A DNA stretch of 20,964 bases from Saprospiraceae bacterium. GTDB lineage: Bacteria; Bacteroidota; Bacteroidia; Bacteroidales; JAIPBB01. The translations under genes were made by a program, and so were the position numbers. Location of the stretch: NCBI GenBank assembly GCA_021739805.1, contig JAIPBB010000043.1, forward strand, positions 1 through 20,964, read 5' to 3'. The notes under the pieces were generated by a model, which was not told where the DNA came from, ran no database searches, and saw nothing but the letters and a program-made list of their open reading frames with translations. Positions 4,261 to 15,034 of this stretch are shown here, in pieces. The number at the start of each line of letters is the position of its first letter. Position 1 is the stretch's first letter.

Positions 4261-4295
4261 ACGAGAAACAAGTAACAAGAAACGAGAAACAATGA
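4261..4295 (+). repeat. ACRAGWA heptad tandem array, first copy
   Basis: Five 7-bp units run in perfect period: ACGAGAA, ACAAGTA, ACAAGAA, ACGAGAA and ACAATGA. The first four fit ACRAGWA exactly. The fifth contains the ATG (4292) taken as the start of the nucleotidyltransferase. A second array with the same unit consensus lies at 6755-6789, also just before a start codon. Confidence 0.75.
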
Positions 4296-5020
4296 AAGCA
4301 ATGATTTTTGCGGCTGGGTTGGGAACACGCTTACAGCCAATCACAAATAATATACCTAAGGCCTTAGTCGAACTAAAGGGAACTCCCCTACTTGAAATTG
4401 TTATAAAAAAACTTATTTCTTTTGGTTTTGATGAAATCATTGTGAACGTTCATCATTTTGCTGATTTGGTTACTGATTTTTTGAAAACTAAAAACAATTT
4501 CGGAATTAAAATTGAAATTTCTTATGAGCAAGATTTGCTTCTTGACACAGGAGGTGGCTTAAAAAAAGCAAGCTGGTTTTTCAACGATAGTAAACCCTTT
4601 TTGGTTTATAATGTCGATGTTTTATCGGATATTGATTTGCAGGATTTTTATAATTTTCATATCCAGTCTAAGTCTCTGGCAACTCTGGCAGTAAGAAACA
4701 GAGAAACTTCGCGCTATCTTTTATTCAATAAAGAAAACATTTTATGTGGATGGAAAAATATTAAAACCGGTGAAATAATTTTAGCACGATCAAATGAAAA
4801 AAATTTAACTCCGATTGCTTTTAGTGGAATTCAAATTATCGACCCGAAGATTTTTAAATTTATAAATCAAGATGGTAAGTTTTCAATAATAAATTCGTAT
4901 CTTGAGCTGGCAAAAAAACATAAGATTAGTGCTTACAACCACGATGATACAATCTGGATGGATTTAGGCAAAATAGAAAATTTAATTGAAGCGGAGAAAC
5001 TGATTGATAAAATTTTATGA
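4292..5020 (+). CDS. Sugar-1-phosphate nucleotidyltransferase, possibly MurU-like
   Basis: The 242-aa protein has the Rossmann-like nucleotidyltransferase signature at the extreme N-terminus: KAMIFAAGLGTRLQPIT with IPKALVEL (residues 2-27). This is the NTP-binding loop with the catalytic Arg13 and Lys23. DTGGGLKKA (85-93) and YNVDVLSDI with metal-binding Asp109 follow. Length and the DTGGG block resemble MurNAc-1-phosphate uridylyltransferase (MurU) of cell-wall recycling, but substrate cannot be fixed, and no MurNAc kinase gene lies beside it. An in-frame ATG at 4238 would add 18 residues encoded largely by the heptad repeat. The start at 4292 puts the hydrophobic first strand where the family has it. 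The stop overlaps the next ATG (ATGA), so the two are translationally coupled. Confidence 0.85.
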   Translation: MKAMIFAAGLGTRLQPITNNIPKALVELKGTPLLEIVIKKLISFGFDEIIVNVHHFADLVTDFLKTKNNFGIKIEISYEQDLLLDTGGGLKKASWFFNDSKPFLVYNVDVLSDIDLQDFYNFHIQSKSLATLAVRNRETSRYLLFNKENILCGWKNIKTGEIILARSNEKNLTPIAFSGIQIIDPKIFKFINQDGKFSIINSYLELAKKHKISAYNHDDTIWMDLGKIENLIEAEKLIDKIL

Positions 5021-6754: not shown

Positions 6755-6789
6755 ACAAGAAACGAGTAACAAGAAACGAGTAACGAGAA
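6755..6789 (+). repeat. ACRAGWA heptad tandem array, second copy
   Basis: Five 7-bp units in perfect register are ACAAGAA, ACGAGTA, ACAAGAA, ACGAGTA and ACGAGAA, all fitting ACRAGWA. The array stops 5 bp before the nuclease ATG at 6795. It is the same family as 4261-4295. Confidence 0.8.
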
Positions 6790-6794
6790 AAACC

Positions 6795-9653
6795 ATGCAG
6801 CCATTTTTAAATAAAACAGCAAAATATTTATTTGAGAAGTTCCAAGACGGAATTTCTGATATTTGCATTGTTTTACCTAGTCGCAGGGGAAGTCTTTTCT
6901 TTAAAAAGTATTTGGCTGATAAAATCGAAAAGCCAATTTGGTCACCGACAATTTTTTCCATTGAAGACTTTATTTCAGAAATTTCAGAACTTCAAATTAT
7001 CGACCCAATCACTTTGCTTTTTGAATCTTACAAAGCATATAAAAACATTGAAGGTAAAAATGCTCAGGACTTCGAAACCTTCATTAATTGGGGAAGCATT
7101 CTTTTGCACGACTTCAATGAACTTGACCTTTACCTGGTTAATCCTGATGATATTTTCAGCTATTTAAACGAAGTTAAAGCTCTCGAAAAATGGAATTTAA
7201 ATGGTAAACCATTATCAGAACTCGAACTCAATTATCTAAAATTCTATAATTCATTAGGGAAATATTATAAAGAATTATCAACTCAGCTCCTTTCAAAAAA
7301 TCAAGCATATCAAGGATTAGCTTACAGAAAGGTAGCGGAAGAAATTGAAGATAAAGCAGAGAGTTTGAAATGGTCTAAAATTATTTTTGTTGGTTTCAAT
7401 GCTTTGACTTCTGCCGAAGAATGGATTATCAAAGTTCTTGAAAGCTCAGGCAAAGCTGAAATTTTATGGGATACTGATAAATATTATCATGAAGACCCTA
7501 AACAGGAAGCAGGACGATTTCTTAGAAAATATTTAAAGAATAAACCAAAAGACAAAATCAACTGGATTGAAAATGGTTTTGCCGATTCGGAAAAAGAAAT
7601 TAAAATTATCGGTGTTCCTAAAAATGTCGGACAAACAAAATTGGCTGGGCAAATTTTAAAGGATGAATATGATTCCACAAAACCCGAAAGTTTTGCCATT
7701 GTTTTGGCAGATGAAAATCTTTTGACTCCCCTACTCAACTCTATTCCCGAAAATATTGAAGAGTTCAATGTTACCATGGGTTTGCCATTGAAACTCACTC
7801 CGGCTTACGATTTCTTTAATTCACTTTTCATGCTTCATCTAAATGCTGAAAAGCTTAAGAATATTTCTGCAAAGAATAATGATAAAAATTTAATTCCACG
7901 CTTTTATCATAAAGACATTACAAAGCTTCTATCTCATTCCTTCCTACAGAAAACTTTCAATTCTTTCGATAATGATACAGACTTTATTAGCGAATTAATT
8001 AACAACATTAAAAAGCTCAATAAATCATTCTTTAATTATGATGAATTAAAATCATTGCTAAATTCCGATGAAAAAAGAGCTATCGGATTAATTGATTCAC
8101 TTTTCAATAATTGGAAAAATCCATTTGAAATCTTTGAAAAATTAGTAAATCTAATTTCAATAATTAGGGATTCGTTAATAGAAACGAGCAAAAAAAACTC
8201 AACACATCTAAAAATTGAGCTTGAATATCTTTATACATTTTCGAAAATCTTTAAACGCTTAAAATCACTTAGTGAAGAGTTTGAAGGCTTCGATAATCTT
8301 AAAACTCTAAACACCATATTTAACCAGATTGTTCGAACTTCGACCCTACCCTTTTACGGTGAGCCTCTAAAAGGATTGCAGGTGATGGGAATGCTTGAAA
8401 CCCGAACTCTGGATTTTGATAAAATCGTTTTATTGTCGGCAAACGAAGGACTTTTGCCTTCAGCTAAGTCAGCAAATACATTTATTCCTTACGACATTAA
8501 ACGTGAGTTTAAAATCCCGACTCACAGAGAAAAAGATGCAGTTTTCGCCTATCATTTTTACAGGCTTTTACAGCGAACAAAACAAGCCTACATACTTTAT
8601 AATACTGAAGCTGACCAATTGGGTGGTGGCGACAAAAGTCGTTTTATCACCCAGATTATTCATGAACTTCCAACCTATAATCCAAAAATAAAAATCACTG
8701 AACAAATACTAAGTGTTCCGCCCGTTAAGGATAAAACCGACTATTCAATTAAAATTGAGAAAACCGAAGAAGTTCTTGAAAAGCTGAAAGAAAAGGCAAA
8801 ATCCGGTTTTTCACCAAGCTCACTCAATGCTTACAGAAATTGCTCTTTGCGTTTTTATTTTCAGCAAATTGCAGGACTCAAAGAAATCGAAGAAGTTGAA
8901 GAAACCATTGATGCTGCAACACTTGGTACTGTAGTTCATGAAGTTCTGATGGAACTTTATACTCCATATAAAAACAAGGTTTTAAGTCAGGATATTATTA
9001 AAACAATGATTCCGCAGATTGAAAGCAAAGTGCAAATAGCTTTTAAAAAGGAGTATAAAAGTGGGGATGTGAATTATGGTAAAAATTTATTAATTCTGAA
9101 AGTTGCGAACTCATTTATTAAAAATTTCCTTGCAGCAGAGATGAAATATTTAGCTGAACTTGAAAAGGAAAATAAGAACTATACAATTTTGCATCTCGAA
9201 GAAGCCGTTGAATTTGATTTAAATGAGAATATTAAACTAAAAGGATTTATCGACAGAATTGATAAAGTAGATGATGTTCTAAGGATTATTGATTACAAAA
9301 CTGGCAAAACCGAGCAGAAAGAATTAACAATAAAAAATTGGGAAGATTTGATTTTTGAAAGCAAACACGACAAAGCTTTCCAATTACTCACTTATGCATA
9401 TTTAATTCAAAAATCCGTACTTAAAACCAAAAATATTGAATCCGGCATAATTTCATTCCGTAACCTTGGTAGTGGTTTTATGAAAGTTATAGCTCCATCA
9501 GGTGAATCAATCACAACCGAAGACTTAAACGAATTTGAAATTATTCTCAAAAATCTGATTGACGAAATTCTGGATAAAGAAATTCCTTTCTCCCAAACCG
9601 AAGAAGCTGATAATTGTGAGTATTGTGCGTTTAGGGGGATTTGTTATAGGTAA
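6795..9653 (+). CDS. addB: AddB-like PD-(D/E)XK nuclease of a helicase-nuclease repair complex
   Basis: The 952-aa protein has the length and order of AddB/RexB. The N-terminus (IVLPSRRGSLFFKKYL, about 24-39) lacks a Walker A motif, so this half is a structural, helicase-like scaffold. The C-terminal nuclease has GTVVHE (711-716), GFIDRID with metal-binding Asp820, DYKTGK with Asp833/Lys835, and a QLLTYAY motif. The iron-sulfur cluster ligands are Cys683 (YRNCSLRF) and Cys941, Cys944, Cys950 at the extreme C-terminus. Such proteins work with an AddA helicase in double-strand break repair and degradation of linear DNA. No addA gene follows here. The last 46 bp of the gene are repeated at 10309-10354, on the far side of a toxin-antitoxin module. 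A heptad repeat precedes the start. Confidence 0.88.
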   Translation: MQPFLNKTAKYLFEKFQDGISDICIVLPSRRGSLFFKKYLADKIEKPIWSPTIFSIEDFISEISELQIIDPITLLFESYKAYKNIEGKNAQDFETFINWGSILLHDFNELDLYLVNPDDIFSYLNEVKALEKWNLNGKPLSELELNYLKFYNSLGKYYKELSTQLLSKNQAYQGLAYRKVAEEIEDKAESLKWSKIIFVGFNALTSAEEWIIKVLESSGKAEILWDTDKYYHEDPKQEAGRFLRKYLKNKPKDKINWIENGFADSEKEIKIIGVPKNVGQTKLAGQILKDEYDSTKPESFAIVLADENLLTPLLNSIPENIEEFNVTMGLPLKLTPAYDFFNSLFMLHLNAEKLKNISAKNNDKNLIPRFYHKDITKLLSHSFLQKTFNSFDNDTDFISELINNIKKLNKSFFNYDELKSLLNSDEKRAIGLIDSLFNNWKNPFEIFEKLVNLISIIRDSLIETSKKNSTHLKIELEYLYTFSKIFKRLKSLSEEFEGFDNLKTLNTIFNQIVRTSTLPFYGEPLKGLQVMGMLETRTLDFDKIVLLSANEGLLPSAKSANTFIPYDIKREFKIPTHREKDAVFAYHFYRLLQRTKQAYILYNTEADQLGGGDKSRFITQIIHELPTYNPKIKITEQILSVPPVKDKTDYSIKIEKTEEVLEKLKEKAKSGFSPSSLNAYRNCSLRFYFQQIAGLKEIEEVEETIDAATLGTVVHEVLMELYTPYKNKVLSQDIIKTMIPQIESKVQIAFKKEYKSGDVNYGKNLLILKVANSFIKNFLAAEMKYLAELEKENKNYTILHLEEAVEFDLNENIKLKGFIDRIDKVDDVLRIIDYKTGKTEQKELTIKNWEDLIFESKHDKAFQLLTYAYLIQKSVLKTKNIESGIISFRNLGSGFMKVIAPSGESITTEDLNEFEIILKNLIDEILDKEIPFSQTEEADNCEYCAFRGICYR
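9608..9653 (+). repeat. Direct repeat, left copy, forming the addB 3' end
   Basis: These 46 bp end exactly at the addB stop codon and encode DNCEYCAFRGICYR, including three of the four iron-sulfur ligands. They are identical to 10309-10354 at 45 of 46 positions. Similarity stops abruptly on both sides. Confidence 0.93.
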
Positions 9654-9711
9654 GCTTTTAAATTATCCATTTATTAAAATATTTATTTTGAAAGCTATTA
9701 TTTTGCATAAT

Positions 9712-9742
9712 TTTGAAAAAAAACAAAAATTAATTACTTTTG
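9712..9742 (+). promoter_or_regulatory. Promoter of the ParE-type TA operon
   Basis: TTTG (9712-9715), a 19-bp spacer and TACTTTTG (9735-9742) match the Bacteroidota -33/-7 pattern TTTG-N19-TAnnTTTG. The predicted transcript starts a few bases before the antitoxin ATG at 9760. Confidence 0.6.
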
Positions 9743-9759
9743 AATAAAAAAATTAGGAT

Positions 9760-9996
9760 ATGAGTACAATTGAACTCCGACATTTGATAATAAAATATTT
9801 ATCTCAAATTGATGATATTTCTTTTTTAAAAGCAATAAAGACAATTATTGAATCGAAAGCAGCCGGAGAGTTTTATGAGCTTTCTGAATATCAGAAGAAG
9901 CGTATTGAGTCAGGAAGGGAACAACTTAAAAACGGACAGACAATATCTCATAATTCTATTAACAAAGAGATAGACCAATGGTTAAATTCAAAGTAG
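9760..9996 (+). CDS. Antitoxin of a ParE/RelE-type toxin-antitoxin pair
   Basis: This 78-aa protein is short and mixed-charge. It has an N-terminal helical stretch (RHLIIKYLSQIDD) and a C-terminal segment, YELSEYQKKRIESGREQL to IDQWLNSK. The latter is typical of Bacteroidota antitoxins that precede a ParE-like toxin. The toxin-neutralising part is usually the C-terminal end. No ribbon-helix-helix or HTH motif is clear, so DNA binding cannot be asserted. It overlaps the toxin gene by 19 bp and has its own promoter just upstream. The function is assigned mainly from size, position and the recognisable partner. Confidence 0.72.
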   Translation: MSTIELRHLIIKYLSQIDDISFLKAIKTIIESKAAGEFYELSEYQKKRIESGREQLKNGQTISHNSINKEIDQWLNSK

Positions 9997-10295
9997 AATG
10001 GTCAGTTGAAGCCCGACTTGATTTACTTGACCAACTTGAATATTACAATCAAAGAAACAAGACCACTACATACAGCAGAAAATTATACACCAAAATTAAT
10101 AAAAGCATCAATCTGATTTCCAAAAATCCAAAGCTTGGAATAAAAACTGACATTGATACAGTAAGAGCATTGATTACAGACAATTATCAAATAATTTATG
10201 AAATATTCGAAAAGCAAATACTAATAGTTATGGTATGGGATTGTCGCAGGAATCCTGATGACAAAGTAATAGATAGACATAGAAAACATCAATAA
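9978..10295 (+). CDS. ParE/RelE-superfamily toxin
   Basis: The 105-aa protein has the RelE/ParE fold pattern: an N-terminal VEWSVEARLDLLDQLEYY strand-helix, a middle helix with SINLISKNPKLG, then VRALITDNYQIIYEI and LIVMVWDCRRNPDDK. The last block is the family's conserved C-terminal strand with basic residues. ParE members poison gyrase and RelE members cut mRNA on the ribosome. The helix-rich N-terminus and lack of a clear RelE catalytic set favour ParE, without proof. Translation is coupled to the antitoxin through a 19-bp overlap. The TAA stop overlaps an ATG (10295) opening a 19-codon frame into the right copy of the addB repeat. Confidence 0.82.
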   Translation: MVKFKVEWSVEARLDLLDQLEYYNQRNKTTTYSRKLYTKINKSINLISKNPKLGIKTDIDTVRALITDNYQIIYEIFEKQILIVMVWDCRRNPDDKVIDRHRKHQ

Positions 10296-10308
10296 TGGAC
10301 CACAACAA

Positions 10309-10354
10309 TGATAATTGTGAGTATTGTGCGTTTATGGGGATTTGTTATAGGTAA
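10309..10354 (+). repeat. Direct repeat, right copy, orphan duplicate of the addB 3' end
   Basis: These 46 bp repeat 9608-9653 with a single G-to-T change that turns an Arg codon into Met. An ATG at 10295, overlapping the toxin stop, opens a 19-codon frame reading MDHNNDNCEYCAFMGICYR that ends at the same TAA as the addB copy. It is not likely to be a functional gene. It is best read as a displaced copy of the gene end. Confidence 0.93.
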
Positions 10355-10447
10355 AATAAATTTGGAAATATATTTGAGAATTATTTTTTAATCCCTTAAA
10401 TTGTTTTAATTTTAGTTAAAGTTGTATTTTTTTAAAAACATGACGAT

Positions 10448-10651
10448 ATGGAACTGATTCAGTTATATAGAAAATTAAATTATTTGCCGACTGATTTAAA
10501 ATCAGAAGTAAATGACTTTATAGATTTTCTGTTAAGTAAAAGGAAAAAGGAGATTAAGAAAAAGACACCTATATTTGGATGTGCAAAAGGTCAGATTTAT
10601 ATATCTCCTGATTTTGATGAGCCATTAGACGATTTTAAAGAATATATGTAA
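10448..10651 (+). CDS. DUF2281-type antitoxin of a VapBC-like pair
   Basis: The 67-aa protein shows the small DUF2281 pattern. An N-terminal helix, LIQLYRKLNYLPTDLKSEV-, is followed by NDFIDFLLSKRK, and a C-terminal FGCAKGQIYISPDFDEPLDDFKEYM segment then wraps the toxin in such pairs. These proteins usually sit directly upstream of a PIN-domain ribonuclease and neutralise it. Here the downstream toxin is truncated, so the antitoxin is likely an orphan. Its stop overlaps the toxin start as TAATG. A possible weak -7-like TAAAGTTG lies upstream. Confidence 0.78.
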   Translation: MELIQLYRKLNYLPTDLKSEVNDFIDFLLSKRKKEIKKKTPIFGCAKGQIYISPDFDEPLDDFKEYM

Positions 10652-10749
10652 TGGACTTATTGCTTGATACACATTCATTGATATGGTTTCTAAATGGAGA
10701 CAAAAAGTTATCTGATAAGGCAAAATCCGCAATTGAAGACCATCGCTAG
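10651..10749 (+). pseudogene. Truncated PIN-domain toxin (VapC-like)
   Basis: Only 32 codons remain of a family that is normally about 125-135 aa. The start, MDLLLDTHSLIWFLNGD, is the textbook first strand of a PIN ribonuclease with the first catalytic Asp (D6), followed by KLSDKAKSAIEDH. The frame then stops at TAG (10747-10749). None of the later acidic residues is found in any forward frame downstream, so the rest of the gene seems deleted or replaced at about 10745. It shares a TAATG junction with the antitoxin. Confidence 0.8.
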
Positions 10750-10835
10750 TGCACGAATCCTTTCCTGTTCTATTTTGGATATGAAGCTGATGCAGTTATA
10801 TTGAAAATTAAATTATTCCTAATCCGAAAATAATA

Positions 10836-10889: not shown

Positions 10890-10937
10890 GAAATTAAATT
10901 ATAAACCTAAAATTACCAACCTCTAAATTTTAAATTC

Positions 10938-10973
10938 TATCCATTTGAAACAGTATATTTAATATCTTAGTGG
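10938..10973 (+). promoter_or_regulatory. Conserved 36-bp promoter-like repeat, copy A
   Basis: The core reads TTTGAAACA, 15 bp, then TATCTTAG and TGG. It is 34/36 identical to 14333-14368 and ends 44 bp before the GH106-like start codon. TTTG plus TATCTTAG resembles -33/-7 boxes with a short spacer. The TGAAAC could alternatively be the -35 of an ECF-type sigma factor. Confidence 0.6.
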
Positions 10974-11017: not shown

Positions 11018-13018
11018 ATGAAAAAATCTCAAATTAAAGAAATCCTTGTTCCTGTGATGATTTCGGTTTTACTGTTCGTTTTAATTATCGCTTGTAGGCA
11101 AACGGATACCGATTCAAGTATTGAAAATGAAAACCTAAAAAGTAATATGGAGTATATTTCAAAACCATTTGCTCGTTACTGGTGGTTTGCCTCGGAAATT
11201 CAAAAAGAAGATGTTAAATACAATCTTGACTGGTTAAAGAAAAATGGTTTTGGAGGAATTGAAATTGCTTGGGTTTATCCGCTTAATGCAATGGATAAAA
11301 GCTTAGACACTTCATACACTCCTCGTTATACATGGTTAGGTTCACAGTGGCAACAAATAGTAAACTACACTATTTTATATGCTGATAGTATTGGACTTGG
11401 CTGTGATATGACCATGGGTACACTTTGGCCCGTTGGAGATTCTCATGTGAGTTTTGAACAGGCGACACAAATATACGGTCAGGAAGAAAGACAGAAAATT
11501 TCACGTTCATGGGAATATCCGGTGCAAGGATATGTTGTTGACCATTTAAATCCTGAAAACTATCTGAAATATTTCAAACGTATTATCGACTCATTTCCTC
11601 AACCAAAAATCAATTTACCTCAATCATATTTTGTTGACAGTTGGGAGGTCGAAACTAAACACATTTGGGCAGATGGTTTTGAAAAGGATTTTCAAAACAA
11701 ATTCGGATATGACATACGTCCTTTTATGGACTCTATATACGAAACAAAATATCAGCATCAACTCTACGATTATATGAAACTGATTTCATCGAAAGTAATT
11801 GGGTTTTATAAAAATTTTGATAGTATTCTAAATGATAGAAATATTTTTTCGAGAGGTCAATGCTCCGGAGCACCCTGTGATCTTATTTCAGCTTATGCTT
11901 ATCTGGATATTCCCGAAGGCGAATCAATGTTGTATGAACCCGAATATAACAGCATACCGGCTTCTTCCGCTGCCCTTGGAAGCAAAAAAGTTGTCAGTGC
12001 CGAAACATTTACTTGTTTATATGGATGGCCAAGAAATCACATTCGGGAAGAACAAACAGCAGATTTGAAACTGGTTGCTGATGCTTTATTTGCTAATGGA
12101 GTTAATCATATTGTCTGGCATGGAAAAGCTCATAATCATAAAAACCAGGATACCACAAGATTTTATGCCAGTGTTCATATCGGGAAAGATGGTAGCCTGG
12201 CTGCAGAATTACCGGCATTTAACAAATATCTAAGTACTATTTCTGAATATATGAAAAAGGGCAATACATACACTGATGTTGCTGTTTATTTGCCAACAGA
12301 AGATTCATGGATAAAAGGAATTATGCCAAAAGAAAAGCAGTTTATATGGGCATGGGGATATTACGAAATGCGTTATGTATATTTCCCTGAAGAAGTGAAG
12401 GGTCATCATCCTATCTGGATAAATAAAGAATTTTTAGAAAAAGCTCAATACATAAATAATAAAATCAAAGTTGGAGATATTAGCTTTAATTCTTTATACT
12501 TTGATGTTCATTACCTTGATTATGAAGTTTTAGTAAAGATGCTTGAACTTGCCAAAAAAGGTGCACCAATTAGCTTGAAACAAACTCCTTTGGAAGCTGG
12601 AGTAAAAAAACATTTAAACTGGAATACAATTTTGGATAAACTTTACTCACTCCCCAATGTTTCAAAAAGTTTCTCTCCTAAAAACCTACCATTAATAGAA
12701 GGCAATGAGCTACCTTCTTTTTGGGCAAGAGAATTTAACAATAGCTTATACATTTTTTTCGCTAATCCTAAATCTAAGCATTTGGCTTTTCCTCTTGAAT
12801 ATGGACAATCCTATATTCAGGACACACTGGTTTATGATATTAATATTAATTACCATGGAAAAACATATAGTCAAAAGCTAATTTTTAAACCTTATGCTTC
12901 ACTTTTGTTTAAAGTCGAAAATGATATGTTACAGCAAATTGATATTGAATTTATACCTAAAACTCCTGAAGTGAACACACTAACTGAAGATATTAAAAAG
13001 CCATGGTTGGTTCCATAA
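11018..13018 (+). CDS. GH106-like glycoside hydrolase lipoprotein (alpha-L-rhamnosidase type)
   Basis: This 666-aa protein has a lipoprotein signal with lipobox LIIAC (Cys26). The TIM-barrel start resembles GH106: RYWWFASE (53-60), LDWLKKNGFGGIEIAWVYPL, then LGLGCDMTMGTLWPVG. FVDSWEVE (205-212) and VSAETFTCLYGWPRNH (Glu329) are candidate acidic active-site segments, and NGVNHIVWHG matches the family's VNH-xxxHG stretch. GH106 enzymes cut alpha-L-rhamnose linkages, for example in pectin rhamnogalacturonans. Canonical members exceed 1000 aa, so this is a short relative lacking the C-terminal beta domains, and the exact substrate is uncertain. It is probably anchored on the outer or periplasmic membrane. 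A promoter-like repeat shared with the lipoprotein gene at 14408 lies upstream. Confidence 0.75.
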   Translation: MKKSQIKEILVPVMISVLLFVLIIACRQTDTDSSIENENLKSNMEYISKPFARYWWFASEIQKEDVKYNLDWLKKNGFGGIEIAWVYPLNAMDKSLDTSYTPRYTWLGSQWQQIVNYTILYADSIGLGCDMTMGTLWPVGDSHVSFEQATQIYGQEERQKISRSWEYPVQGYVVDHLNPENYLKYFKRIIDSFPQPKINLPQSYFVDSWEVETKHIWADGFEKDFQNKFGYDIRPFMDSIYETKYQHQLYDYMKLISSKVIGFYKNFDSILNDRNIFSRGQCSGAPCDLISAYAYLDIPEGESMLYEPEYNSIPASSAALGSKKVVSAETFTCLYGWPRNHIREEQTADLKLVADALFANGVNHIVWHGKAHNHKNQDTTRFYASVHIGKDGSLAAELPAFNKYLSTISEYMKKGNTYTDVAVYLPTEDSWIKGIMPKEKQFIWAWGYYEMRYVYFPEEVKGHHPIWINKEFLEKAQYINNKIKVGDISFNSLYFDVHYLDYEVLVKMLELAKKGAPISLKQTPLEAGVKKHLNWNTILDKLYSLPNVSKSFSPKNLPLIEGNELPSFWAREFNNSLYIFFANPKSKHLAFPLEYGQSYIQDTLVYDININYHGKTYSQKLIFKPYASLLFKVENDMLQQIDIEFIPKTPEVNTLTEDIKKPWLVP

Positions 13019-13273: not shown

Positions 13274-14266
13274 ATGAATAATTCTCAAATAGAAATATAT
13301 CAGCTTGAAAACGGAAAGACTGAAATTAAGGTTCAATTAGAAAATGAATCTGTTTGGTTAAGTTTAAATCAAATGGTAGATTTATTTGACCGTGATAAAT
13401 CTGTTATATCAAGGCATTTAAATAATGTATTCAAAGAAAATGAGTTATCGAAAGAAGCAACTGTTGCAAAAATTGCAACAGTTCAATATGAAGGAGAAAG
13501 GAAAGTTGAAAGAATTATAGAACATTTTAATCTTGATGTTATTATATCCGTTGGATATAGAATTAAATCTCAAAGGGGAACACAATTTAGAATTTGGGCA
13601 AATAAAGTTTTAAAAGAGTACTTGATAAAAGGTTATTCATTAAATGAAAAACGTTTAACACAACAAAACGAACAACTAAAAGAATTACAAGAGTCAGTAA
13701 AAATGCTTGGAAGTGTATTAAATTATAAAGCTCTAACAAATGATGAAAGTGTTGGTTTATTAAAAATAATTTCAGACTATGCTTATGCACTGGATATTTT
13801 AGACCAATACGACTATCAAAGACTAGAAATAAAAGATACATCAGGAAAAGAAATCTACCAATTGACTTATGAAGAAGCAATAAGCCAAATAAAGTTAGTG
13901 AAAAAAGCACAAGGCAATAGCGATTTGTTCGGACGTGAAAAAGATGAGTCATTTAAAAGTTCGATAAGTACTATTTATCAAACATTTGAAGGTATTGATC
14001 TGTATCCTAGTATCGAAGAAAAAGCAGCAAATTTGCTCTATTTTATTACTAAAAATCATTCATTTACAGATGGAAATAAGCGAATAGCCGCATTTCTGTT
14101 TCTGTATTTCCTAGAAAAAAATAAAATTCTATTTGATAAAAAGGGAAATAAAAGAATTGCTGACAATACATTAGTTGCATTGACATTAATGATTGCTGTT
14201 AGCAAACCTGACGAAAAAGATATTATGACAAAAGTGATTGTAAATTTGATTAATAAAAACAACTAG
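13274..14266 (+). CDS. RhuM-Fic/Doc fusion protein
   Basis: The 330-aa protein has two parts. Residues about 1-130 are a RhuM-type domain: EIYQLENGKTEIKVQLENES with VWLSLNQMVDLFDRD, ISRHLNNVF, and RIKSQRGTQFRIWANKVLKEYL. This region was first noted in a Salmonella island protein and is common in prophages and accessory loci. A Gln/Glu-rich linker (about 135-150) leads to a Fic/Doc domain whose active motif is H262-SFTDGNKR-I271. Lys in place of the second Gly (GNKR rather than GNGR) is the Doc arrangement, which phosphorylates EF-Tu, rather than that of AMP-transferring Fic enzymes. No separate antitoxin gene lies beside it. An inverted repeat overlaps its promoter, suggesting self-regulation. 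Confidence 0.85.
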   Translation: MNNSQIEIYQLENGKTEIKVQLENESVWLSLNQMVDLFDRDKSVISRHLNNVFKENELSKEATVAKIATVQYEGERKVERIIEHFNLDVIISVGYRIKSQRGTQFRIWANKVLKEYLIKGYSLNEKRLTQQNEQLKELQESVKMLGSVLNYKALTNDESVGLLKIISDYAYALDILDQYDYQRLEIKDTSGKEIYQLTYEEAISQIKLVKKAQGNSDLFGREKDESFKSSISTIYQTFEGIDLYPSIEEKAANLLYFITKNHSFTDGNKRIAAFLFLYFLEKNKILFDKKGNKRIADNTLVALTLMIAVSKPDEKDIMTKVIVNLINKNN

Positions 14267-14332
14267 CTGAGGTCAACAATAGAAAATCATCCATCCCCAT
14301 TAAAAAATCATAAACCTTAAAGTTTCAAATAA

Positions 14333-14368
14333 TATCCTTTTGAAACATTATATTTAATATCTTAGTGG
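14333..14368 (+). promoter_or_regulatory. Conserved 36-bp promoter-like repeat, copy C
   Basis: It differs from 10938-10973 at only two positions and ends 39 bp before the lipoprotein ATG at 14408, nearly the same distance as copy A. The core is TTTGAAACA then TATCTTAG-TGG. Confidence 0.6.
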
Positions 14369-14407: not shown

Positions 14408-15034
14408 ATGAGAATACTAATATTAACACTATTGATGTCAGGAATCGTTTTCGGCTGCAAAACGAAAAACGAACAAAAAGAAGACACTTCAAGACAAGTA
14501 GAGTCATATTTAACACCGGATAAGATAGAAGCATCAAGTGCTCATGTTTCAGAAAGTGTTATTCTGGACACAACAAACCTGATTAAAAATTTGAATGAAT
14601 TTATCCCGACTATTACCAAGTTACCCCACTCATTTACATGTAAATTGGAGTCATTGGAATACGATTCTACCCACTTTTCATATTACTATAATCTTTTTAC
14701 AGATTCCACTATTTTAATTTCCTATACATTTGAATGTGGAGACTATTTTAAAAATATCAAGGTGATTGAAGCCTTATATACCGATTTCCAAAACTCACAG
14801 AGAGTGTTTTCTGAATTAAAGGACATAAGTAATACAGGACACTTTTGCTTAACAAAAGCAAATGACTATTTAGTAAGCTTTGAAGATAGAATCTATTGGT
14901 TAAATGGGAGTTGCTACTATCCTTATTATAATTTCCAAAGAATCGAAAAAATATTTCTTAATTCACTGACTAGTAACTCAATAAATGACTCAATTAAATG
15001 TAAATGTGGGGGTCAAAATATGACTAACAAATAA
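14408..15034 (+). CDS. Hypothetical lipoprotein
   Basis: The 208-aa protein starts with a short lipoprotein signal ending IVFGC (Cys17), followed by a Lys/Glu-rich tether. The remainder is not a family I recognise. It has a segment with alternating beta-like stretches (FTCKLESLEYDSTHFSYYYN) and a late Cys pair, CKCGG, near the C-terminus. It lies 46 bp before the GH29 gene and is preceded by promoter-like repeat C, so both may belong to one transcript. No enzymatic motif is visible. Confidence 0.7.
   Translation: MRILILTLLMSGIVFGCKTKNEQKEDTSRQVESYLTPDKIEASSAHVSESVILDTTNLIKNLNEFIPTITKLPHSFTCKLESLEYDSTHFSYYYNLFTDSTILISYTFECGDYFKNIKVIEALYTDFQNSQRVFSELKDISNTGHFCLTKANDYLVSFEDRIYWLNGSCYYPYYNFQRIEKIFLNSLTSNSINDSIKCKCGGQNMTNK

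Follow-up and report, generated by a model that had tools for sequence, protein, structure and literature searches.

A toxin–antitoxin operon between two copies of the addB 3′ end, and comparable loci with empty sites, in Bacteroidota

We describe a small toxin–antitoxin (TA) operon that lies between two copies of the 3′ end of addB in a Saprospiraceae bacterium (contig JAIPBB010000043.1, assembly GCA_021739805.1; the ‘window’ below is this whole stretch of 20,964 nucleotides). The cassette is probably an insertion with a long, variable target duplication that carried a TA module. The window unit fits this class in the features tested, combining a bare TA module, a long direct duplicate of the addB end with abrupt borders, and the lack of a recombinase, and by analogy with loci whose empty sites can be read in relatives, it would have arisen as they did. 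The loci described below support the occurrence of small TA modules flanked by duplicated gene ends.

The repeated gene end and the operon it brackets

A repeat search returned a 46-nt direct repeat whose copies are 45/46 identical (98%) at a spacing of 701 (Table 1), and identity drops immediately outside both edges. The proximal copy is the end of addB itself, stop codon included. A preliminary description made from the letters of the DNA had reported such a duplicate of the addB end, with one mismatch, abrupt edges and a terminus exactly at the stop codon, and each of these particulars is confirmed. The mismatch falls in the R codon following CEYCAF. The longest exact match shared by the two copies is 26 bp, and this short shared length, together with the difference between them, speaks against an artefact of metagenome assembly; the window is one entire metagenome contig, but we consider such an artefact very improbable indeed. 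The repeat has a score of 43, and tight bracketing repeats of the same geometry scoring at least 40 were present in 1 of 640 random windows; the bracket around the TA operon exceeds chance expectation.

Between the copies lie 655 bp, in which the sole open reading frames (ORFs) of at least 60 aa to begin are a 78-aa ORF and the 105-aa toxin ORF that it overlaps. Ahead of them on the + strand stands TTTG (9687-9690), followed after 17 bp by TAATTTTG (9708-9715), which by eye reads as a Bacteroidota-type promoter. With a toxin of known family adjoining a small antitoxin gene, the operon is predicted to be a type II TA pair; it is like ParDE and RelBE modules in its PF05016 toxin and overlapping upstream ORF, and differs from them in that the upstream ORF has no family match. 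A ParE-type TA operon had been proposed as the sole content between the copies, in an element lacking a recombinase, and both points hold, as no recombinase gene is found among the ORFs of at least 60 aa beginning there. The 17 proteins scanned across the window also gave no Pfam match to a recombinase (several match nothing, and the region after 18006 was partly scanned), and tRNA and Rfam matches in the window were nil. The window toxin is matched by 231 proteins, its own included, and those bearing organism names among the 120 matches listed come from Bacteroidota metagenome-assembled genomes. No phage record and none of the viral contigs carried a match; one plasmid record did, at 38%.

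Table 1. Features around the addB 3′ end in the window (all coordinates refer to the 20,964-nt stretch)
Feature	Coordinates	Strand	Remarks
addB-like PD-(D/E)XK nuclease gene	6795..9653	+	952 aa, open to stop; C-terminus CEYCAFRGICYR
Proximal 46-bp repeat copy	9608..9653	+	last 46 bp of addB, including TAA
Putative antitoxin	9760..9996	+	78 aa; no Pfam or NCBIfam match
ParE/RelE-type toxin	9978..10295	+	105 aa; PF05016 ParE_toxin, 35 bits against a 23-bit cut-off
Distal 46-bp repeat copy	10309..10354	+	1 mismatch (AGG to ATG)
vapB-like antitoxin gene	10448..10651	+	DUF2281, NF050009; TA neighbour of the cassette
Partial second copy of vapB start	10778..10817	+	40 bp, 90%

Empty and occupied alleles at comparable loci

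The most informative analogue is L115 (genome G103), where a ParDE module bracketed by a 39-bp repeat separates two genes, one matching Thump_like and, weakly, methyltransferases, the other a convergent Ppx-GppA gene. A search with this site gave a match in 39 of the 41 genomes of its genus, and 20 of the resulting stretches were examined. Eight are empty (L272, L275, L276, L277, L279, L280, L284, L286), and in these the left and right flanks share a single copy of 38-39 bp. Six more occupied sites show both flanks (L269, L278, L281, L282, L283, L285). L270 is occupied and has lost its right side at a contig end, the right gene being found on another contig of the same genome (L271). The remainder comprise three stretches with one flank only (L273, L274, L288) and a stray copy elsewhere (L287).

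The cargo of this site differs between alleles. By Pfam it includes ParD-ParE; YoeB with a PhdYeFM-like protein (the latter below cut-off); AbiEii with a 232-aa partner that matches nothing; a ribbon-helix-helix (RHH)-type protein with ParE, twice; and AAA_14-DUF4143 ATPases of ~398 and 434 aa (L281, L282, L283, L278 and L285, with L269 by likeness). The prediction that other cargo would be met between copies of the same gene end is thereby realised at the L115 site, with YoeB, AbiEii, RHH-ParE and AAA_14-DUF4143. No recombinase was found in the complete inserts there.

At all eight empty L115 sites the two flanking genes share 68 bp in a tail-to-tail overlap. Both genes nevertheless remain open to their stops at all seven occupied sites that show both, because the target has been duplicated; the left gene retains CIYA.RC.PGD and the right gene QGLRFG.AQ.EL.R, with the last residues altered. 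When junctions were placed on the empty sites by local alignment, with edges uncertain by some bp, the 11 junction pairs gave estimated duplications of 39, 45, 68, 84, 87, 25, 125, 85, 43, 72 and 33 bp, starting at points 1, 12, 7, 32, 7, 21, 6, 20, 6, 18 and 19 (nine different values, some 1 bp apart only). In seven of the 11 pairs both copies are visible as a direct repeat within the locus itself, of 39, 39, 64, 70, 92, 52 and 33 bp. The variable ends of the duplications argue against a recombinase that uses a fixed crossover core, of which this site gives no sign. A 55-bp dispersed sequence occupies the right end of the ParDE cassette (L115 2345-2399; L299-L307) and recurs elsewhere in the genus; it was considered as a candidate recombination end.

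Two further loci resemble the window in other respects. At L134 (G117) a TA module lies between metK, so named by eye, and the next gene, within a 40-bp bracket of 100% identity. Once the TA was removed in silico, the L134 flanks aligned continuously to genome G027 over 610 bp (69%), and G027 has a single copy. Six genomes of this genus, G117 included, were searched for the site, and the other four have the same two genes ~150-400 bp apart with the TA absent and the 40-bp stretch too diverged to recognise. At L169 a 66-bp copy begins precisely where the convergent gene has its stop, a mirror image of the window; no empty L169 site was readable, as the left and right pieces lie apart in the 10 of 40 genomes that match both. 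The empty site with a single copy that the preliminary description had hoped for in relatives is thus present at the analogues L115 and L134, but none was found at addB itself.

addB as the target

Relatives of the window AddB at 49-51% identity carry names such as Bacteroidetes bacterium or Bacteroidales bacterium, and the closest, 64% identical, lies on a 4.2-kb contig. A close relative was absent from 395 genomes of the phylum, 143 of which match, with a best identity of 43% among the matches listed, and from the 98 genomes of the order of G260 at E<=1e-100, a search made without a positive control in a sample whose small size for a whole order restricts any hunt for relatives. In a tree, the window AddB groups with metagenome proteins, beside a flavobacterial group. 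Downstream regions were screened in 59 other addB stretches that extend 400 bp or more beyond the gene (median downstream length ~1.5 kb); they represent 55 regions, L001/L008, L002/L009, L005/L010 and L006/L011 being duplicate places.

A repeated addB 3′ end was present in none of the 59, and on this ground we reject addB as a special anchor. The suggestion that a helicase-nuclease gene might tie the toxin to DNA repair therefore lacks support, since the analogues also have other genes as their targets: the methyltransferase/Ppx-GppA pair, the sequence downstream of metK and, in L169, the 3′ end of a gene. An involvement of AddAB by virtue of addB being the target is likewise not supported.

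The likeness of the two copies to attL and attR had also been raised. Site-specific integration at the addB 3′ end would be performed by a tyrosine recombinase acting in trans, with the 46 bp as the attachment (att) core and the TA operon as a remnant or satellite, and it agrees with the use of a conserved gene's 3′ end, the restored frame and a repeat terminating at the stop codon. The absence of a recombinase match among the scanned window proteins (several of which match nothing), the lack of repeated ends at the other addB stretches and duplications that vary from 25 to 125 bp at L115, with no sign of a fixed core, leave the att likeness without support, and we judge this origin unlikely.

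The AddB proteins themselves show a separate difference. Flavobacterial-type AddB frames (L001-L004, L008, L009, L015-L043) end before the C-terminal CxxC...C cluster, which is kept by the window AddB and 39 relatives (P0002-P0040). The cysteines of this cluster are presumably iron-sulphur ligands, and the flavobacterial type would have undergone an apparent loss of them.

Bracketing repeats around RelE/ParE loci

Bracketing repeats were counted at 124 RelE/ParE loci, drawn as sets of 14 and 30 places and 80 more from the listing that gave the 30, in order of match strength, with places near contig ends and weaker matches left out; eight loci with a stop inside the toxin match were retained, and loci from one genus are not independent. 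Direct repeats had to be at least 20 bp long and at least 84% identical, and in the tight geometry copy 1 ended no more than 700 bp before the toxin and copy 2 started no more than 250 bp after it. The wide geometry used 1100 and 350 bp and a score of 20. Counts were made with a relaxed complexity filter, as the stricter filter drops AT-rich repeats, the window's own included. For comparison we used 640 overlapping random windows, cut from 40 stretches, each 20 kb long, of genomes belonging to this sample, and 30 loci each of the DUF4143, PIN and acetyltransferase families.

Tight brackets with a score of at least 20 were found at 16/124 RelE/ParE loci versus 4/640 random windows (p=2.7e-10), at a score of at least 30 in 11/124 versus 2/640 (p=8e-8), and at a score of at least 40 in 10/124 versus 1/640. 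In the wide geometry the counts were 19/124 for ParE, 3/30 for DUF4143, 2/30 for PIN, 1/30 for acetyltransferases and 5/640 for random windows, and 204 mock centres placed in AddB loci gave none at a score of at least 20 under the stricter complexity filter. Random DNA is bracketed by repeats far less often than RelE/ParE modules are. Inspected by eye, the 16 bracketed loci are mixed: at L115, L134, L169 and L161 the repeat comprises a gene end, a terminator-like sequence or the start of a gene, and L089, L091, L090 and L095 received no class. Among the DUF4143 loci, the ATPase gene of L323 is bracketed by a 92-bp, 87% copy of the start of an apparent FAD oxidoreductase gene (by eye).

Weighing the evidence

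Several observations count against insertion with target duplication as the origin of the window cassette, or against its generality. For the window addB no relative with an empty site was found, the seven AddB loci from the genome scan being 33-42% identical. At the L115 site, four of the 11 junction pairs have no internal direct repeat, and their duplications come from alignment to the empty site alone. Nor are all events independent: L269 and L270 share the right junction of ParDE, and AATGAGTCAACCC stands just inside the right copy of six inserts with differing cargo, spread over five genomes (L278, which has two of them, L281, L282, L283 and L285). This common end may date from a single old insertion and have been passed on by descent, or it may be a meaningful recognition end. 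Not all of the inserted DNA is TA either, as the first L269 insert (~746 bp) has no recognised gene, and L274 and L288, neither with a right flank, carry an HTH_23/HTH_33 protein and an ORF resembling an aldo-keto reductase, respectively. In the survey, the ParE count did not differ significantly from that of acetyltransferases (p=0.063 wide, 0.11 tight), nor from those of PIN or DUF4143, and bracketing limited to TA modules is not shown. By eye, moreover, some of the 16 bracketed loci have other characters: L073 is a tandem TA, L107, L142 and L176 are possibly cassette-type or dispersed repeats, L094 and L121 resemble cassette or dispersed repeats, and L186 and L140 resemble insertion sequences.

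Tandem TA arrays such as L073 and L107 (by eye), and the partial vapB repeat near the cassette, lend some plausibility to a tandem duplication of the addB end together with the TA, one copy of which was then lost. In the window, however, the cassette is not repeated after 10354, and there is a sharp edge exactly at the repeat end, so that we regard this course as quite improbable. Tandem duplication with decay, or a distal copy belonging to a full second addB, had been named as the outcomes that would argue against an inserted element; neither is seen, identity stopping at both edges of the 46 bp.

Proposed course of insertion

Under insertion with target duplication, the antitoxin/ParE operon would have entered the addB 3′ end as a bare module of 655 bp, and the event would have duplicated 46 bp of the target, such that addB keeps its whole 3′ end and a second copy stands behind the module. 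Three routes could lead to this arrangement. A break with a long stagger could have captured a fragment and been filled in on both sides of it; DNA from a relative could have recombined homologously at one of its ends and been joined illegitimately at the second, in which case the proximal copy would be donor DNA; or the duplication could reflect template switching. Modules that kill the cells that lose them would be retained afterwards, and selection explains the intact neighbour genes in surviving events.

The second of these routes deserves separate comment. In a one-sided homologous capture, a relative's fragment with the addB 3′ end and the TA would have recombined at addB and joined illegitimately at its far side, leaving the donor's copy proximal and the old end distal; it is one path within the insertion described here, not an alternative to duplication. 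Such a capture would yield long, arbitrary duplications with no enzyme of the element, and would account for the one mismatch in 46. It also agrees with L161, where a 29-bp copy falls within a gene and the far-side sequence, by eye, still resembles the same gene. Yet it requires a donor in which the TA already lay downstream of addB, and no repeated end occurs among the 59 addB stretches (these were screened for repeats, not for TA genes). We see it as possible, though somewhat doubtful as the specific route taken in the window.

Taken more broadly, Bacteroidota TA modules and related killers encoded by single operons (AbiE, AAA_14-DUF4143) might be mobile units with no recombinase of their own, entering through a host process in which tens to ~100 bp of the target become duplicated, the long duplication permitting harmless entry into gene ends and even overlapping genes. 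This generalisation is tentative, and we think it rather unlikely to hold. The right end AATGAGTCAACCC common to six inserts of differing cargo at one site could be part of such a host process.

Comparison with known systems

Insertion of restriction-modification genes with long target duplication was reportedly described in Helicobacter pylori by Nobusato et al. in 2000. In the literature, insertion with long target duplication emerged from a comparison of two H. pylori strains and was connected with restriction-modification genes (PMC1643837), it is also treated for such genes in PMC3031569, and some restriction-modification systems are stated to insert with long, variable target duplications of ~100 bp (PMC3874152). 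The likeness lies in a self-contained killer or addiction module flanked by long direct copies of its target, and, for the analogues of the window and not for addB, where a single event is known, in the variable length of these copies and the empty allele of a sister genome. The differences are that TA modules (joined at the analogue site by AbiEii and AAA_14-DUF4143 genes) replace restriction-modification as the cargo, that the hosts are Bacteroidota, and that the analogue site was hit repeatedly, with differing duplications inside two overlapping genes. On our best reading, what is new is TA modules as cargo of a type of insertion previously described for restriction-modification genes; a limited literature search, at the level of titles and the beginnings of abstracts, returned no report of long target duplications around TA modules.

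Integrative elements such as the staphylococcal cassette chromosome and integrative and conjugative or mobilizable elements occupy gene 3′ ends between attL and attR. As in the window, the gene end is restored and a second copy stands at the far side; the window unit differs in spanning 701 bp and having no recombinase, and the comparable site gives no hint of a fixed core. A TA pair is likewise bracketed by repeats in the TA gene cassettes of chromosomal integrons, but the repeat of the window is the coding end of addB. The occurrence of TA genes in integrons is mentioned in PMC3874152.

Surroundings of the cassette in the window

Directly adjoining the ParE cassette, 10445-10817 is an apparent TA remnant. 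The vapB-like gene is followed at 10651..10749 (+) by what by eye looks like the start of a vapC PIN toxin gene, with a stop after 32 codons. The place downstream of addB has probably hosted more than one TA, because a vapB-like gene, an apparently cut-short vapC and a partial vapB copy lie beyond the distal repeat.

Other repeats are present in the window. A 65-bp, 83% repeat (10909-10973 versus 14304-14368) has copies ending ~40-45 bp upstream of two ORFs, one at 11018 (GH106 match) and one at 14408, and could be a common promoter or leader, or a further bracket around the GH106 gene and a gene with RhuM and Fic domains. The latter (13274-14266) matches the PADLOC candidate PDC-S23 (E 7.8e-142). 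A 43-bp, 81% repeat, ACGAGAAACAAGTAACAAGAAACGAGAAAC..., lies at 4261-4303 and 6755-6797, near two ORF starts.

Implications for the movement of toxin–antitoxin modules

Lone chromosomal TA modules are widespread and often transferred, without transfer genes, and to our knowledge the way they move is an open question in the field. Insertions of the kind described here leave a signature that can be scanned for, the end of a neighbour gene repeated at the far side of the module. Combined with an empty site in a sister species and a site that has been hit repeatedly, it makes the movement of TA modules countable and testable, and the L115 site, with its many events, offers a clean handle on it. 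Dense genomes can accept DNA in this way without breaking neighbouring genes, because the long target duplication leaves both members of an overlapping gene pair with an end of their own.

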